A DNA stretch of 12,264 bases from an uncultured Lachnospiraceae bacterium (GTDB taxonomy: Bacteria > Bacillota > Clostridia > Lachnospirales > Lachnospiraceae). The position numbers and the translations under genes were made by a program. Position 1 is the stretch's first letter; each line of letters opens with the position of its first letter. The stretch lies in NCBI GenBank assembly GCA_900555195.1, contig USKC01000064.1, forward strand, positions 1 through 12,264, given 5' to 3'. Positions 4,693 through 12,211 of this stretch are shown here, piece after piece. Under the pieces are notes generated by a model. The model saw nothing but the letters and a program-made list of their open reading frames with translations. It searched no databases and had not been told where the DNA came from.

Positions 4693-5892
4693 TTATAAAT
4701 ACTTCTTCAGTACTTCCACCTTGTCAAGCTTCTCCCACGGAAGGTCGATGTCCGTGCGGCCAAAATGGCCATAGGCCGCCGTCTGCTTATACAGCGGACG
4801 TCTCAGATCCAGCATCTTGATGATGCCTGCCGGACGCAGGTCAAAGTTCTCGCGGATGATCTCTACCAGTTTCTCATCGTCAATTCTGCCGGTTCCAAAG
4901 GTGTCTACCATGATAGAGGTCGGATGTGCCACGCCAATGGCATAGGACAGCTGGATCTCGCATTTCTTGGCAATCCCTGCCGCTACAATATTCTTAGCAA
5001 CATACCGGGCCGCATAGGCTGCGGAACGGTCTACCTTCGTGCAGTCTTTGCCGGAGAATGCTCCGCCTCCATGGCGGGCCATTCCGCCATAGGTGTCTAC
5101 GATGATCTTGCGGCCTGTAAGGCCGCTGTCGCCATGAGGCCCGCCGATCACAAAGCGACCTGTGGGATTGATGAAGAACTTCGTATCCCCGTCAATCATC
5201 CCCCGTGGAATAACCGCTTCGAAAACATGTTTCTTAATGTCCTCATGAATCTGCTCCTGACTGATATCCGGGTCATGCTGGGTTGACAGCACCACCGCAT
5301 CCAGGCGTCTTGGAACGCCTGCCTCGTCGTATTCCACCGTCACCTGGGTCTTGCCGTCTGGTCTTAAATAGGGAAGCGTTCCGTTCTTCCTGACTTCCGT
5401 AAGTTTTCTGGCCAGCTTGTGAGCCAGGGCAATCGGGTATGGCATCAGTTCCGGGGTTTCATCCGTGGCGTAGCCGAACATCATTCCCTGATCCCCGGCT
5501 CCGATTGCCTCGATCTCTTCCTCGCTCATTCCATGCTCTGCGCCCTGCTGCTTCGCCTCCAGTGCCTTGTCCACACCCATAGCGATATCTGTGGACTGCT
5601 CATCCAGCACCACCATCACGCCGCAGGTATTGGCATCAAAGCCGTAATCCGATTTGGTATATCCGATCTGGCGCACCGTATCCCGTACGATCTTCTGGAT
5701 GTCCACATAAGCGTTCGTGGTGATTTCTCCCATCACCATCACCAAGCCAGTAGTGGTGCAGGTCTCGCAGGCAACCCTGCTCATCGGATCCTTTTCCATC
5801 AAGGCATCCAGAATGGCATCGGAAATCGCATCGCACATCTTATCGGGATGTCCTTCAGTCACGGATTCGGAAGTGAATAAATATTTCTCCAT
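4693..5892 (-). CDS. metK: S-adenosylmethionine synthetase
   Basis: 399-residue methionine adenosyltransferase, which makes SAM from methionine and ATP with release of phosphate and pyrophosphate in the cytoplasm. Family signatures are all present: the ATP-binding GHPDK (14-18) near the N terminus, [12 protein letters not shown] (131-142, MetK signature 1), the [24 protein letters not shown] block (239-262) and [19 protein letters not shown] (275-293, signature 2 with the phosphate-binding loop). Length is normal. The ATG at 5892 is chosen because [18 protein letters not shown] is the standard N terminus and a GGAG site lies eight bases upstream; the open frame up to 5994 is riboswitch leader. 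The gene stands alone between its own promoter plus SAM-I riboswitch and its own terminator, so its product shuts down its own synthesis. Confidence 0.98.
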
Positions 5893-5961
5893 CGTTTTTC
5901 TCCAATCTGCCGCATGCGCGGCCTTTTGAATCCCGGGCCGCTTCGCGGGCAGTCTTTCCAT

Positions 5962-5989
5962 AAAAAAAGAGCCCGCAATAAGCGGACCC
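5962..5989 (-). terminator. Riboswitch-controlled terminator (expression platform) of metK
   Basis: The stem GGGTCCGC/GCGGGCTC (arms 5982-5989 and 5969-5976, including G-U pairs) with a five-base loop is followed on the minus strand by seven T (5968-5962). Its loop and arm bases CTTATTG (5982-5976) are exactly complementary to CAATAAG (6020-6014) in the 3' strand of aptamer helix P1. With SAM bound, P1 holds CAATAAG and the terminator forms; without SAM the antiterminator wins. Confidence 0.9.
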
Positions 5990-6011
5990 GACATGTAATG
6001 ATAATCAAATC

Positions 6012-6211: not shown

Positions 6212-7504
6212 TCAGCTCACCCTGAAGCGAAACTTCCTCACTTCCCGCTCGCTGTCCACCTTTTCAATCTGAGCGCCCAATGCGCGCAGCTTTTCAGGGA
6301 AGTTCTCATAGCCTCTCTCGATATAACGGATGTCATCCACCGTGGATACACCCTCTGCAGCCAGCGCAGCAATGACGAGCGCAGCTCCGGCGCGCAGATC
6401 CGGCGCTGTGATTCCAGCACCCGTATAGCGGGATACCCCATCGATGATCGCGGTATTGCCTTCTACCTTGATGCTGGCTCCCATCCTCGTCAGCTCGTCC
6501 ACATATTTAAAACGGTTTTCAAAAATGCTCTCCGTCACAATGCTCGTTCCCTGGGAAAGGCCCAGCGTAACGGTGATCTGCGGCTGCATATCCGTCGGAA
6601 AACCGGGATAAGGCAGCGTCTTCACATGGGTATGCGTAAGCGGCCTGCTGGCCACCACACGAACCGCATCTTCCGCCTCTTCCACATCACATCCGATCTC
6701 CGTCAGCTTCGCGCTGATGGATTCAAGATGCTTGGGGATCACATTCTTCACTGTCACATCTCCACGCGTTGCCGCAGCTGCAAACATGAACGTGCCCGCT
6801 TCAATCTGATCCGGAATGATGGTATATTCTGTCCGGTGAAGCTTCTCAACGCCGCGGATACGAATCACATCCGTTCCCGCGCCCTTGATATTGGCTCCCA
6901 TGCTGTTGAGGAAATTGGCCAAATCCACCACATGTGGCTCTTTCGCCGCGTTCTCTATGATCGTCATCCCTTCCGCCATGGATGCCGCCATCATCACGTT
7001 AATCGTAGCGCCCACACTGACCACGTCCATGTAGATATGGCTTCCCTTCAGGCGCTCTGCCTCAGTAATAATCAGGCCATGTTCGATGCGGACGTCCGCA
7101 CCCAGCGCCTTGAATCCTTTGATATGCTGATCTATGGGCCTGCTGCCGATATTGCAGCCTCCGGGAAGCGCCACCTCAGCCTTCTTATATTTACCAAGAA
7201 GCGCTCCCAGCAGATAATAGGAAGCGCGTATTTTCTTGATATAATCATCCTCTATCACAAGTTCATGAATCTGCGCCGCATTGATCTGCACCGTATGCCT
7301 GTCCACGCGATTCACCATCACTCCGATGCTCTCCATCGCCTGAAGGAGAATATTCGTGTCTCTCACGTCAGGCATATTTTCTACCAGCACCGTCTCATCC
7401 GTCATCACTGAAGCCGCGAGGATGGCCAGGGCCGCATTCTTGGCTCCGCCTATCTCCACTTCTCCTACCAGCGGATTCCCGCCACAAACCACATATTGTT
7501 CCAT
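6212..7504 (-). CDS. murA: UDP-N-acetylglucosamine 1-carboxyvinyltransferase
   Basis: 430-residue EPSP-synthase-fold enzyme that transfers enolpyruvate from PEP to UDP-GlcNAc, the first committed step of peptidoglycan synthesis in the cytoplasm. Key sites are visible: Lys22 and Asn23 in IGGAKNAALA, Arg93 in KIRASYYLLGALL, and the active-site loop LPGGCNIGSRPIDQH with Cys117, the residue alkylated by fosfomycin, so a fosfomycin-sensitive form is expected. Other family stretches are PGFPTDMQPQ and the C-terminal DLRAGAALVIAAL. I chose the ATG at 7504 because GAGGG lies six bases upstream and MEQYVVCGGNPLVGEV is the usual N terminus; two earlier in-frame ATGs overlap that ribosome site. It stands alone: upstream are tandem promoters, downstream the metK promoter. 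No U-tailed terminator is obvious at its 3' end. Many Firmicutes carry two paralogues (murA/murZ); this could be either. Confidence 0.95.
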   Translation of the reverse strand: MEQYVVCGGNPLVGEVEIGGAKNAALAILAASVMTDETVLVENMPDVRDTNILLQAMESIGVMVNRVDRHTVQINAAQIHELVIEDDYIKKIRASYYLLGALLGKYKKAEVALPGGCNIGSRPIDQHIKGFKALGADVRIEHGLIITEAERLKGSHIYMDVVSVGATINVMMAASMAEGMTIIENAAKEPHVVDLANFLNSMGANIKGAGTDVIRIRGVEKLHRTEYTIIPDQIEAGTFMFAAAATRGDVTVKNVIPKHLESISAKLTEIGCDVEEAEDAVRVVASRPLTHTHVKTLPYPGFPTDMQPQITVTLGLSQGTSIVTESIFENRFKYVDELTRMGASIKVEGNTAIIDGVSRYTGAGITAPDLRAGAALVIAALAAEGVSTVDDIRYIERGYENFPEKLRALGAQIEKVDSEREVRKFRFRVS

Positions 7505-10110: not shown

Positions 10111-10944
10111 TTATATTCCAAGTATTCCCAAAACCTGCAGAATAAACAGCAGGATATTCACCAACGCAGCGGCCATCGTGATGCCGAGCATCGGCTTGAG
10201 CCCTTTTCCCGCTTCTTTGAGTTCTTCCGTCTGCTTCTTTCCCTCTTCCACCACCACGGCCTGGACGTTCCGGTATACCTTCACGTTCTCTTTATGGGTG
10301 AACTCGTCCGTCTGCTTCTGCATATCGCGCAGGCTCTCCGTCTGGCTCTCAACCAGCTGGCGGATCTCCTCAACGCGCTGAGCGGTCTCTATGTTCCGGT
10401 TATTCACTTCCTGTATCTTGGAAAGGCTCTCTTCGGTCAGCCTGCGAATCCCATCCAGGCTTTCTTCGGCCATGCTCTCCATCCGCTGCATGCTGCTTTG
10501 CGCCAGCTGCTCCATATCAGAAAGGCTTTTGGCCGCCAGCTCTTCCAGCCGCTTCGCTCCCTCATCCGCAAGCCGCGCAACCTGAGCTGCCCCTTCTGTG
10601 CTCATACGGTTCAGCCCCTGCTCGCCCGATGCAGAATATCTCTTCAGGCCCGAAGAACATTCCTGTGCCAGCTTCTGTATCCCCTGCAGTCCCTCTTCTG
10701 CCAGCTTCTGCATGCCTGAAGCGCCCTCTTCCGTCAGCGCCTGTATTCCGGCCGCGCTCTTATCCGTATAACGCTGGATCACATCCAGCGTCTCCACATT
10801 TTTCATATTGGTCTTACGCATCTCCTGGAGATACCCGTCATATTCCACAAGCTGATTGCGCAGCCGCTTCGCCTCCTGTGCATCCGGGTTTGTTCCCCCG
10901 TTTCCCGCAGCGCGGCCCGATATGCCGTCTCTGTAATCTTCCAT
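10111..10944 (-). CDS. Tail-anchored protein with eleven 11-residue (hendecad) repeats, unknown function
   Basis: 277-residue protein I cannot assign to a named family. Residues 1-25 are Gly/Asn-rich. From 66 to 186 the sequence divides without gaps into eleven 11-residue units of the form G-[I/M/L]-x-x-[L]-[A/T]-E-E-[G/S]-x-x, for example GIQALTEEGAS, GMQKLAEEGLQ, GIQKLAQECSS, GLNRMSTEGAA, RMESMAEESLD, GIRRLTEESLS. Positions 2 and 5 are hydrophobic throughout (a Tyr in one unit), which predicts a long amphipathic helix of apolipoprotein/LEA/hendecad coiled-coil type. A more ordinary charged helix (187-248) follows, then a hydrophobic segment 251-277 with no charge after it: a C-terminal membrane anchor. 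The helix would therefore sit in the cytoplasm on the inner membrane face. The ATG follows GGAGGG by eight bases. It is first gene of the operon with the flavin reductase and the M23 hydrolase. A structural or scaffolding envelope role is a guess. Confidence 0.85.
   Translation of the reverse strand: MEDYRDGISGRAAGNGGTNPDAQEAKRLRNQLVEYDGYLQEMRKTNMKNVETLDVIQRYTDKSAAGIQALTEEGASGMQKLAEEGLQGIQKLAQECSSGLKRYSASGEQGLNRMSTEGAAQVARLADEGAKRLEELAAKSLSDMEQLAQSSMQRMESMAEESLDGIRRLTEESLSKIQEVNNRNIETAQRVEEIRQLVESQTESLRDMQKQTDEFTHKENVKVYRNVQAVVVEEGKKQTEELKEAGKGLKPMLGITMAAALVNILLFILQVLGILGI
10387..10749 (-). repeat. Eleven tandem 33-bp coding units (hendecad repeat)
   Basis: This segment encodes residues 66-186 of the tail-anchored protein: eleven in-frame 33-bp units with conserved protein pattern and visibly related but diverged DNA (recurring CAGCTTCTGxATxCC and TCTTCxG stretches on the plus strand). 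The units keep exact length with no insertion, which points to selection on the 11-residue helix period. Confidence 0.8.
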
Positions 10945-11150: not shown

Positions 11151-11206
11151 TTAACCACACATTCATATTGAGTTCATAGTTTATTCATAATTGGCTGTTA
11201 TATTAT
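11151..11206 (+). promoter_or_regulatory. PhoP-box-like tandem hexamers and -10 box of a plus-strand promoter
   Basis: Four hexamers start at 11151 (TTAACC), 11162 (TTCATA), 11173 (TTCATA) and 11184 (TTCATA), an exact 11-bp period, each followed by 5 bp. TTCATA fits the Gram-positive PhoP half-site TT(A/C/T)A(C/T)A, and TTAACC fits at five of six positions. A -10 box TATTAT follows at 11201-11206, putting the array at about -62 to -24 relative to a start near 11213, which is where PhoP-type activators bind. No -35 box of normal spacing exists, as expected for an activator-dependent promoter. Another OmpR-family regulator could equally use the site. Confidence 0.55.
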
Positions 11207-11212
11207 AAGTGT

Positions 11213-11309
11213 AGCGAGGGAAGATCGCTTCTTCTTTTAAAATGTAACTTAGATAAATTTTTTCATAATAGCCCCGGCGCCTATGGTGTCGGGGCACTCC
11301 TCATTTTTT
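11213..11309 (+). ncRNA. Putative small RNA, undescribed, about 97 nt (or about 200 nt if it ends at 11415)
   Basis: This plus-strand stretch lies downstream of the PhoP-box-like promoter and has no usable reading frame (the only ATG in the first part is followed at once by TAA). The predicted start coincides with a small hairpin AGCGA/TCGCT (11213-11229). An AU-rich single-stranded part is followed by a strong hairpin, GCCCCGGCGCC / GGTGTCGGGGC (11271-11281 and 11285-11295), 11 pairs with a three-base loop. Two of these pairs are G-U, which would be A-C mismatches in minus-strand RNA, so the structure favours a plus-strand transcript. The single-stranded ACTCCTCA and TTTTTT follow (to 11309); ACTCCTC is complementary to ribosome sites. 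The T run is eight bases from the stem, so termination may instead occur at 11378-11415. It converges on the alarmone synthetase gene. Confidence 0.45.
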
Positions 11310-11377: not shown

Positions 11378-11415
11378 AAAAATTCCGGAACAGCATCCTG
11401 CTGTCCGGAATTTTT
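11378..11415. terminator. Bidirectional intrinsic terminator
   Basis: A very stable hairpin: AAAAATTCCGG (11378-11388), a bulged A, ACAGCA, loop TCC, TGCTGT, CCGGAATTTTT (11405-11415). Both strands end in five T directly after the G/C-rich stem. On the minus strand it terminates the alarmone synthetase gene (81 bases after its stop); on the plus strand it would stop the putative small RNA or protect the synthetase gene from antisense read-through. Confidence 0.85.
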
Positions 11416-11496: not shown

Positions 11497-12144
11497 CTAC
11501 CCTTCTTTTTCTCCACTCAAACTCAGAATCTCTTCATTCAATGACAGCATCCTCGCATCCAGATCGGATACCATCTTCGCACATTCCACCAGCTGCCTGC
11601 GAATGTGTTCAGGCGCTTTTCCTTCAAACTTATAATTGATCTTATGCTCCAGACTGGCCCAGAAGTCCATGGCCACCGTCCGAATCTGGATCTCCACCTT
11701 CACTTCCACAATCCGATCCGACAGAAAGACCGGAACCGTTACCAACATATGATAGCTTTTATAACCGCTCTCCTTCGGACGCCTGATATAGTCCTTCACC
11801 GATATAACCTTGATGTCATTCTGATTCCGCAGCATATCCGCGATTCGGTAGATATCGGACGTAAAGGAACAGATCACCCGAATTCCCGCAATATCGTTGA
11901 CATATTTCACCATATTTTCAATGGTGGATTCATAACCGTAGCGCTTCAATTTCTTGACAATGCTCTCTGAGGTTTTCATCCTGGATTTAATATGCTCGAT
12001 CGGATTATAGCGGTGTACATGCTGGAACTCATCATTGAGGATCTCCAGCTTGGTATTGATCTGCTTCAGCGCCGCGCTATATACCAACGTCACCTCCTGC
12101 CAGCTGTCCACCTGATCTCCTCTGGTATCCACTTCAAATTCCAT
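11497..12144 (-). CDS. Small alarmone synthetase, RelQ/YjbM-type GTP pyrophosphokinase
   Basis: 215-residue single-domain (p)ppGpp synthetase without hydrolase or regulatory domains; it transfers pyrophosphate from ATP to GDP/GTP in the cytoplasm. Family motifs in order: RMKTSESIVKKLKRYG (55-70, substrate-binding basic stretch), NDIAGIRVICSF (83-94), RPKESGYKSYHMLV (122-135), VEIQIRTVAMDFWASLEHKINYK (150-172, with the catalytic Glu of EIQIRT). Length matches the 210-220 residues of RelQ enzymes. I chose the ATG at 12144 because homology starts just after it; its own ribosome site is weak (AAGGCG about ten bases upstream). The frame also allows a GTG at 12201. An upstream ORF of 25 codons overlaps the start, suggesting coupled translation. 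Expression is probably stress- or growth-phase-controlled, as for other small synthetases. Confidence 0.92.
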   Translation of the reverse strand: MEFEVDTRGDQVDSWQEVTLVYSAALKQINTKLEILNDEFQHVHRYNPIEHIKSRMKTSESIVKKLKRYGYESTIENMVKYVNDIAGIRVICSFTSDIYRIADMLRNQNDIKVISVKDYIRRPKESGYKSYHMLVTVPVFLSDRIVEVKVEIQIRTVAMDFWASLEHKINYKFEGKAPEHIRRQLVECAKMVSDLDARMLSLNEEILSLSGEKEG

Positions 12145-12211
12145 TCTTCTGCTCACGCCTTTCCATTTCTGTACGCTTCCAGGCTTCTTCCTGGTCAACA
12201 CGTCTTTCCAT
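12134..12211 (-). CDS. Upstream ORF of 25 codons overlapping the alarmone synthetase start
   Basis: An ATG at 12211 preceded by AAAGGATAATAGAGA (a fair ribosome site nine bases away) opens a 25-residue, highly charged frame beginning MERRVDQEEAWKRTEMERR and ending in TGA at 12134-12136. Its stop lies inside codon 3 of the synthetase frame counted from the ATG at 12144 (11-base overlap, different frame). It has a better ribosome site than the synthetase, so ribosomes finishing it could re-start on the synthetase ATG. Alternatively it marks the true N terminus of the enzyme joined by a sequencing or real frameshift, or is chance. No family recognised. Confidence 0.4.
   Translation of the reverse strand: MERRVDQEEAWKRTEMERREQKNGI

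Follow-up and report, generated by a model that had tools for sequence, protein, structure and literature searches.

What is the function of a stretch of DNA in which a regularly spaced promoter array leads into a structured segment that no gene follows on the same strand? This question is raised by positions 11151-11309, on the plus strand, of a 12,264-nucleotide (nt) piece of DNA from an uncultured Lachnospiraceae bacterium (contig USKC01000064.1 of assembly GCA_900555195.1), the whole of which we refer to as the window. Lachnospiraceae are a major gut bacterial family, and our literature search found no earlier regulatory RNA family of this kind for them. A reading of the letters alone (the original prediction) had proposed that a regulator of the OmpR/PhoB family activates a small RNA (sRNA) here, perhaps one of the Pho regulon. 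The best reading of our comparisons is that the segment is a stand-alone sRNA gene belonging to what appears to be a Lachnospiraceae-wide and often multicopy sRNA family, in which the array with its -10 box, a covarying stem and two conserved arms are seen from copy to copy. We give a probability of about 70% to the reading that a regulator of the OmpR/PhoB type switches on these sRNAs and that they mask translation starts, many of them of exported lipoproteins; the type of the regulator, the repression and the class of targets are what we infer. The observation from which the prediction began is confirmed, and is larger than first described; its interpretation is partly supported.

Distribution of the family

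A BLAST search with 176 bases of the site against 397 Lachnospiraceae genomes gives matches in 118 of them at an expect value (E) ≤ 0.01, and when the best 30 of these matches are aligned with the window sequence, boxes, -10 and RNA module prove to be kept, and the stretch between varies in length and sequence. This search among relatives had been proposed with the original prediction; boxes, spacing and hairpin are conserved, and the stem carries compensatory changes. A pattern scan of named genomes returned at least 119 loci; among the 80 titles listed, most are Lachnospiraceae, given by family name or by genus (Roseburia, Butyrivibrio, Acetatifactor and Eisenbergiella among others); other groups are named in a few titles of metagenome-assembled genomes. 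We define type I as a set of 143 deduplicated copies (142 fetched loci and the window), collected with a search pattern that fixed the outer three stem pairs and both arms. The locus most like the window among the 142 others is that of Eisenbergiella tayi DSM 26961, where the aligned pieces are 70-81% identical and in the same order, and the gene order around the unit is the same as well.

A covariance model of the type I set (R1) matches 142 of the 397 family genomes at E ≤ 0.01. Its weak matches are diverged sub-types, which we call types II, III and IV (names coined in this analysis); their layouts are CACAUAGAUUUUUCAUAAUU-stem-UCUCCUCAUUUU for type II, UUUUUUUUCAUAAACAGCC-stem-CUCUCCUCAUUUU for type III and CUUUUUCAUAAUAUGCC-stem-CAUCCUCCCUUUUAUAGGGUUUUUU for type IV, in which a terminator-like stem overlaps the arm complementary to the Shine-Dalgarno (SD) site. 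A second model (R2), from a mixed alignment that takes in the diverged types, matches 203 of the 397 genomes at E ≤ 0.001; a matched genome has between one and six hits, and many have one. In searches at the level of the class, for which the share of non-family genomes is not stated, R1 had matches in 10 of 391 genomes and R2 in 8 of 321, all of them Lachnospiraceae; the many-genome searches were run with stricter filters. The rows of the mixed alignments (A2 and A3) were chosen from each type, leaving out one locus with an aberrant hairpin (L363), and in a mixed alignment of 50 rows the only fully invariant positions are UUUCAUAA and one C of the CUCCUC arm. The diverged copies differ from type I in an altered stem, and retain the unpaired UUUCAUAA arm and a CUCC arm.

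The nearest genome searched (G001) gives a best E of 0.146 in a BLAST search with the 551-base region around the site, and R2 places a diverged copy in it at E = 0.005, above the 0.001 limit of the R2 count. The same 551 bases gave no BLAST match against phages. Rfam 15 has no family at its gathering score in the window around the sRNA site; at E ≤ 5 the 551 bases return six sub-threshold matches, three of which are to microRNA families. In 11 loci of several types Rfam likewise has none at the RNA, and places only one tRNA and one cobalamin riboswitch elsewhere in the loci. A cobalamin riboswitch begins about 90 nt after the sRNA copy in one locus (L356, 1679-2026). Another locus (L377, genome G266) holds three family copies within 11 kb (2376-2451, 6246-6324 and 13144-13219), all on the minus strand and each between different protein genes.

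Structure, strand and ends of the RNA

The central hairpin had been described as an 11-bp stem whose wobble pairs fit plus-strand RNA only, and both the stem and its orientation hold across the family. In a MAFFT alignment of 95 copies (A1, a selection from 138 distinct rows, not fitted to structure), 96.4% of the stem cells are paired and 7 of the 11 pairs show double changes, with 138 double-changed cells vs 41 in shuffles; sliding the partner by 1-3 columns lowers pairing to 29-48%, and a single column pair (31-56) occurs as CG, AU, GC, GU and UA with zero broken. Summed over the stem there are 178 G-U cells and 2 A-C cells, and the structured strand is therefore the plus strand. A model-fitted alignment of 49 mixed-type copies, which is biased toward pairing by being fitted to the structure, has 97.5% of cells paired and double changes in 11 of 11 pairs. 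The outer stem pairs, fixed in type I, covary in the other types; because these outer three pairs and the arms were fixed by the search pattern, their invariance within type I proves little.

The single-stranded ACTCCTCA followed by six T, which the original prediction had noted after the hairpin, is present, and the U-rich stretch on the 5' side of the hairpin ends in TTTTTTCATAATA on the plus strand of the window. A second, 5'-terminal hairpin is also present as described, and its sequence is not conserved across the 30 aligned relatives. For the predicted stretch of 106 nt the folding energy is -33.6 kcal/mol (z = -4.27). Plus-strand reading frames inside the predicted transcript have widely varying lengths. 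From this structure, its strand and conservation, together with the promoter array and the complementarity presented below, we infer that a small RNA is transcribed.

At the 3' end, a terminator-like mini-stem with a U run after the anti-SD arm occurs in 41 of 140 type I copies, vs 2 of 140 controls, and in 14 of 47 other copies, vs 0 of 47 controls; several type IV copies have CCC-UUUUAUA-GGG and a U run. The base composition on the 3' side of the anti-SD arm shows a few T/G-rich positions and then no conservation. In two loci (L062, 2949-3029, and L024, 1485-1563) a complementary GAGGAG or GAGGA comes after the CUCCUC arm, with which the arm could close into a hairpin; self-inhibition and a terminator are both possible.

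Complementarity to translation starts

UAUU-AUG-AAA-AAA is the complement of the 5' arm and GAGGAGU that of the 3' arm, in an order that fits one RNA lying across a start region. The original prediction had suggested that the CU-rich segment acts on ribosome sites, for which it is indeed suited, and had overlooked the second half of the pairing, the U6-CAUAAUA arm on the 5' side of the hairpin that complements AUG-AAA-AAA. In the mechanism that we propose, an OmpR/PhoB-family response regulator, other than the one acting at pst, would bind the array and recruit RNA polymerase; in the resulting RNA the 5' arm UUUUUUCAUAAUA would pair over the start codon and the lysine codons that follow it (AUG AAA AAA), while the 3' arm ACUCCUC would pair at the same time over the SD site, with the hairpin bulged out between the arms, and this two-point pairing would block ribosome loading. 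Favoured targets would be secreted lipoproteins, such as the binding proteins of transporters, with starts of the form GAGG..AUGAAAAAA, because AUG-AAA-AAA starts are typical of exported proteins.

Binding was predicted in one sRNA-bearing genome (G381), for which our gene caller required an SD site and returned 1236 genes, covering 43% of the fetched sequence, so the target ranks are incomplete. The joined arms in correct order bind its start regions at a mean of -10.56 kcal/mol, compared with -9.72 for swapped arms, -8.33 for shuffled arms (best of 20, -9.99), -8.82 for reversed arms and -6.80 for gene interiors. Proteins with a lipobox-like motif make up 14 of the top 100 predicted targets vs 56 of the 1236 genes (p = 7e-5), and a simpler score also places several MKK...CG lipoproteins high. 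With the hairpin omitted, all 143 type I RNAs imply a spacer of 5 nt between the paired halves, and 36 of 44 other copies one of 4-6 nt; in the genes of G381, GGAG and AUG are most often 9 nt apart, and the distance is 6-10 nt in 440 of 613.

The conserved arms could alternatively bind a protein, an RNA chaperone or a factor that binds start sites, and not mRNA start sites themselves. U-rich single strands next to a stable stem are typical chaperone sites, and the arms are almost invariant, whereas pairing partners should drift. Three observations argue against such a role: each arm fits one half of a start region, and the arms stand in the right antiparallel order for this; the diverged types retain the complementarity (UCCUCC in type IV) amid changed surroundings; and swapping the arms weakens the predicted binding. 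We consider protein binding in place of mRNA pairing unlikely.

The promoter array and its regulator

The four hexamers of the window lie at exactly 11-bp spacing, as first described. A search of the window for the array pattern with ≤3 mismatches has two matches, one at 11151 with 0 mismatches and one shifted by one box at 11162 with 3; 200 dinucleotide shuffles of the window have 0. The -10 box had been read as TATTAT at 11201-11206; a box is present, and the register of the family puts it at the overlapping TATATT of 11199-11204. The strict proximal two-box pattern is found in 130 of the 143 type I copies (the window included), nine further copies have the array by profile score (33.9-46.2), and the other four have ≤74 nt of upstream sequence. 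Both distal boxes are TTNA in register in 110 of the 130, vs 0 at six off-register shifts. The final box stands 9 nt from the -10 in 121 of 131 promoters, TATACT being the commonest -10.

The array extends to the diverged types. Numbering the boxes upstream from the 9-nt spacer, with box 0 inside the anchor and boxes 1-3 outside it, we find that boxes 0-3 of 47 non-type-I loci keep T1, T2, A4 and A6 in 0.87, 0.77, 0.81 and 0.83 of cells, vs 0.17-0.54 off register; boxes 4-6 of these 47 loci do not keep the register as a group. Some copies have six boxes, for example L374. The type I profile scores 18-53 on its own training promoters, 28-42 on eight held-out promoters and mostly 28-43 on type II promoters.

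We scanned 2.4 of the 3.19 Mb of G381 (75%, with 17,773 letters N), and the type I array is found once, at the sRNA, with a score of 43.9; the next independent site scores 3.5 and the best of a Markov control 0.5. A second G381 sRNA match by R2 lies outside the fetched part, and the uniqueness of the array holds for the scanned part alone. With the profile of the diverged types the sRNA is again at the top (48.9, then 28.6, 23.2 and 22.8), and one other TTCAYA-N5-TTCAYA pair occurs in the scanned part, at 975082 on the minus strand. Locus L028 holds, downstream of its sRNA, a further array-like site (about 1390, minus strand, score 27.9); nearby, R2 gives only a weak plus-strand match (E = 0.24).

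The geometry of the promoter is that of an OmpR/PhoB-family activator sitting beside the -10. The original proposal of such a regulator activating a small RNA stands insofar as an array of this kind, at its 9-nt spacing, precedes a structured RNA. A relative of the OmpR-type regulator encoded in the window (E ≤ 1e-15) is found in only 3 of the 143 loci, one of them the window itself, where the gene is 8 kb away, and therefore gives no lead to the regulator. G381 has 10 response-regulator matches resembling that of the window, which are not tied to the array, and no two-component gene was found by eye among 14 open reading frames of ≥120 amino acids near the three G266 copies. It is possible, though we hold this only tentatively, that a dedicated OmpR-family regulator has as its sole or main output the two-armed sRNAs, which would read the start signature of exported proteins (SD plus AUG-AAA-AAA) across the Lachnospiraceae.

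The regulator could in principle be PhoP/PhoB itself, activating the sRNA in phosphate starvation as part of the Pho regulon, as originally suggested. Bacillus PhoP and E. coli PhoB boxes are 11-bp direct repeats of TTNAYA type that overlap the -35 region, and the sRNA boxes agree with PhoP-type boxes in being 11-bp repeats of TTNAYA form at the -35 region. The difference lies in the proximal boxes: the TTCAYA pair occurs in 0 of 13 pst-type upstream regions of sRNA-bearing genomes, whereas a TTTACA-type pair at 11 bp occurs in 11 of the 13. The latter pattern, composed after inspecting the same pst regions, is found in only 1.15% of 2000 random 300-mers. Of 22 loci, L181 was excluded because its gene start is unresolved, L186 because the frame is that of another protein, and L188-L194 as weaker copies or second pieces, which leaves the 13 regions; 8 of the 13 genes are above the pstS family cut-off, 6 of these 8 with the TTTACA-type pair, and 5 are under it. 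Over all 22 pst-type loci the type I array profile reaches at most -2.3, no second four-box array is present in the 2.4 Mb of G381, and pstS-type genes are found in 15 of 25 sRNA-bearing genomes, the other 10 being without a match at E ≤ 1e-20. The local Pho box thus looks like TTTACA, different from the proximal sRNA boxes; a clearly different hexamer at pst promoters is the very outcome that had been named with the prediction as refuting it. The two distal sRNA boxes (TTAACN and TTTACA) do resemble pst boxes, and there is therefore a small chance that PhoP takes some part at the sRNA promoter; a Pho-regulon sRNA as such seems to us improbable.

Two candidate sRNAs of G381 outside this family (L264:7307-7606 and L299:3936-4235, both on the minus strand) have a TATAMT-like box, an upstream GGACAC, a CUCCCCCUCAU stretch and a terminator-like hairpin; in the former, GGACAC is followed by GGACATA. 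R2 does not call either a family member, and they are possibly another C-rich sRNA family.

Gene context

A promoter followed by a structured element is also what one would see if the site led into a plus-strand gene as its 5' leader or attenuator, and a relQ-type gene lies on the same strand in 6 of the 132 loci with 500 nt of downstream sequence. In most of the 132, however, the relQ-type (RelA/SpoT-domain) gene is convergent or not found: it is convergent and ≤300 nt downstream in 79, is not found in 38, and is elsewhere or on the other strand in 15. Past the few T/G-rich positions that follow the anti-SD arm, conservation does not continue. In the window itself, as the original prediction of an orphan plus-strand unit had it, no gene-like plus-strand frame follows; the next gene is convergent, and a terminator-like repeat lies at 11381-11412. 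A leader is very improbable. The site could also be read from the minus strand, either as a short leader that is translated (ATGAAAAAATTTATC...) or as the promoter of a divergent phasin-like gene. This reading draws on the resemblance of that strand to a start region (GAGGAG, then ATGAAAAAA) and is scarcely credible, since the frames from that ATG are scattered between 3 and 39 codons, with three lacking a stop in the stretch, the wobble pairs favour the plus strand by 178 to 2, the array is in register with a plus-strand -10, and in 64 loci no divergent phasin-like gene was found. In 51 loci that gene lies no more than 600 nt away, and in at least ten others it is farther off. Because each neighbour was not found in many loci, the sRNA unit often stands without them. 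The leader, minus-strand and Pho-regulon readings were set aside after these tests of neighbouring genes, frame lengths and pst promoters.

Weight of the evidence

Several points weigh against sRNAs that mask translation starts under an OmpR/PhoB-type regulator. The family is matched in only about half of the Lachnospiraceae genomes searched; a distal box is out of pattern in 20 of the 130 type I arrays, and the array profile built on type I gives low scores to types III and IV. In type I the search pattern itself accounts for part of the invariance of the arms and outer stem, and since the model that picked up the diverged copies scores the arms favourably, those copies do not test arm conservation independently. 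No terminator-like end was seen in 99 of 140 type I copies or 33 of 47 others. CU-rich RNAs in general pair with SD sites, and our gene caller required one, so the binding test rests on the difference from swapped arms, which is modest (mean 0.84 kcal/mol). The lipoprotein enrichment partly restates the MKK starts of exported proteins, and the spacer of the RNA is shorter than the distance in G381 mRNAs, so that some bulge in the mRNA is needed.

Features of the window

The elements of the segment and its neighbours are collected in Table 1. The window also contains a SAM riboswitch (RF00162, 6012-6110, minus strand) upstream of metK (4693-5994), which is ordinary.

Table 1. Elements of the candidate sRNA locus and flanking features, in window coordinates
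Feature	Position	Strand	Remark
Four-hexamer direct-repeat array, TTAACC and TTCATA x3, 11-bp steps	11151-11189	+	putative OmpR/PhoB-family binding array
Box TTAACC	11151-11156	+	
Boxes TTCATA	11162-11167, 11173-11178, 11184-11189	+	
-10 box TATATT	11199-11204	+	9 nt 3' of the final hexamer
Predicted small RNA, about 99 nt	11211-11309	+	5' start inferred from the -10; 3' end inferred
5' hairpin AGCGAGGGAAGATCGCT	11213-11229	+	sequence not conserved
Anti-start arm TAGATAAATTTTTTCATAATA	11250-11270	+	unpaired; complementary to UAUU-AUG-AAA-AAA
11-bp hairpin GCCCCGGCGCC-TAT-GGTGTCGGGGC	11271-11295	+	
Anti-Shine-Dalgarno arm ACTCCTCA	11296-11303	+	unpaired
T6 tract	11304-11309	+	possible 3' end
Terminator-like inverted repeat	11381-11412		with T runs in both orientations; may terminate the convergent gene and, as an alternative 3' end, the sRNA (then about 200 nt)
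RelA/SpoT-domain protein	11497-12201	-	convergent neighbour; best NCBIfam match YjbM-type GTP diphosphokinase, under its cut-off
Phasin-like protein gene	10111-10944	-	divergent neighbour; context

Relation to known small RNAs

CiaR of the streptococci is a regulator of the OmpR family. The csRNAs that depend on it offer a parallel, which we draw from published descriptions and not from direct sequence comparison. As described there, a two-component regulator controls sibling sRNAs; the CiaR repeat is NTTAAG-N5-TTTAAG at a distance of 10 from the -10 in the search pattern, with a final G called extremely important; CiaR drives 15 promoters, and comC and four transporter genes are among the six known csRNA targets. 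By these descriptions both systems place directly repeated hexamers, 5 bp apart, shortly before the -10 (9 nt here vs 10 for CiaR), occur in several related copies (here as many as 6 matches in a genome at E ≤ 0.001, and many genomes with one), and carry anti-SD and anti-AUG sequences in unpaired stretches. They differ in that the CiaR repeat is absent here, where the boxes are TTAACY/TTTACA/TTCATA and the consensus lacks the final G; in having two boxes there vs four or more here, in another bacterial family; in that the antisense sequences lie in one unpaired stretch between two stem-loops there, whereas here a covarying hairpin splits the arms; and in the 15 CiaR promoters vs one four-box array in 2.4 Mb of G381. 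Judged by their promoter as read from sequence, the Lachnospiraceae RNAs are not csRNAs.

The LisRK-dependent LhrC RNAs of Listeria, again compared by description only, offer a second parallel: they are two-component-controlled and multicopy, with CU-rich sites that bind beside the start of a surface-protein mRNA. LhrC is expressed in dependence on LisR under envelope stress; its sites are UCCC and bind upstream of the start codon, and the site in the Lachnospiraceae sRNA is CUCCUC. The RNA described here may be among the 3161 intergenic structured-RNA candidates reported from human microbiome metagenomes (PMC8040213).

Implications

If it is true that these sRNAs mask translation starts under an OmpR/PhoB-type regulator, the finding names a regulatory RNA family of the Lachnospiraceae, together with its promoter code and a simple rule for its targets. 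It would be a second case of an 11-bp repeat array wired to sibling start-masking sRNAs, apparently independent of the streptococcal csRNAs. If, further, the regulator is dedicated to these RNAs, one signal would lower secreted and lipoprotein mRNAs together as a class, and the system would be the Gram-positive equivalent of the envelope-stress sRNAs by which outer-membrane proteins are silenced.
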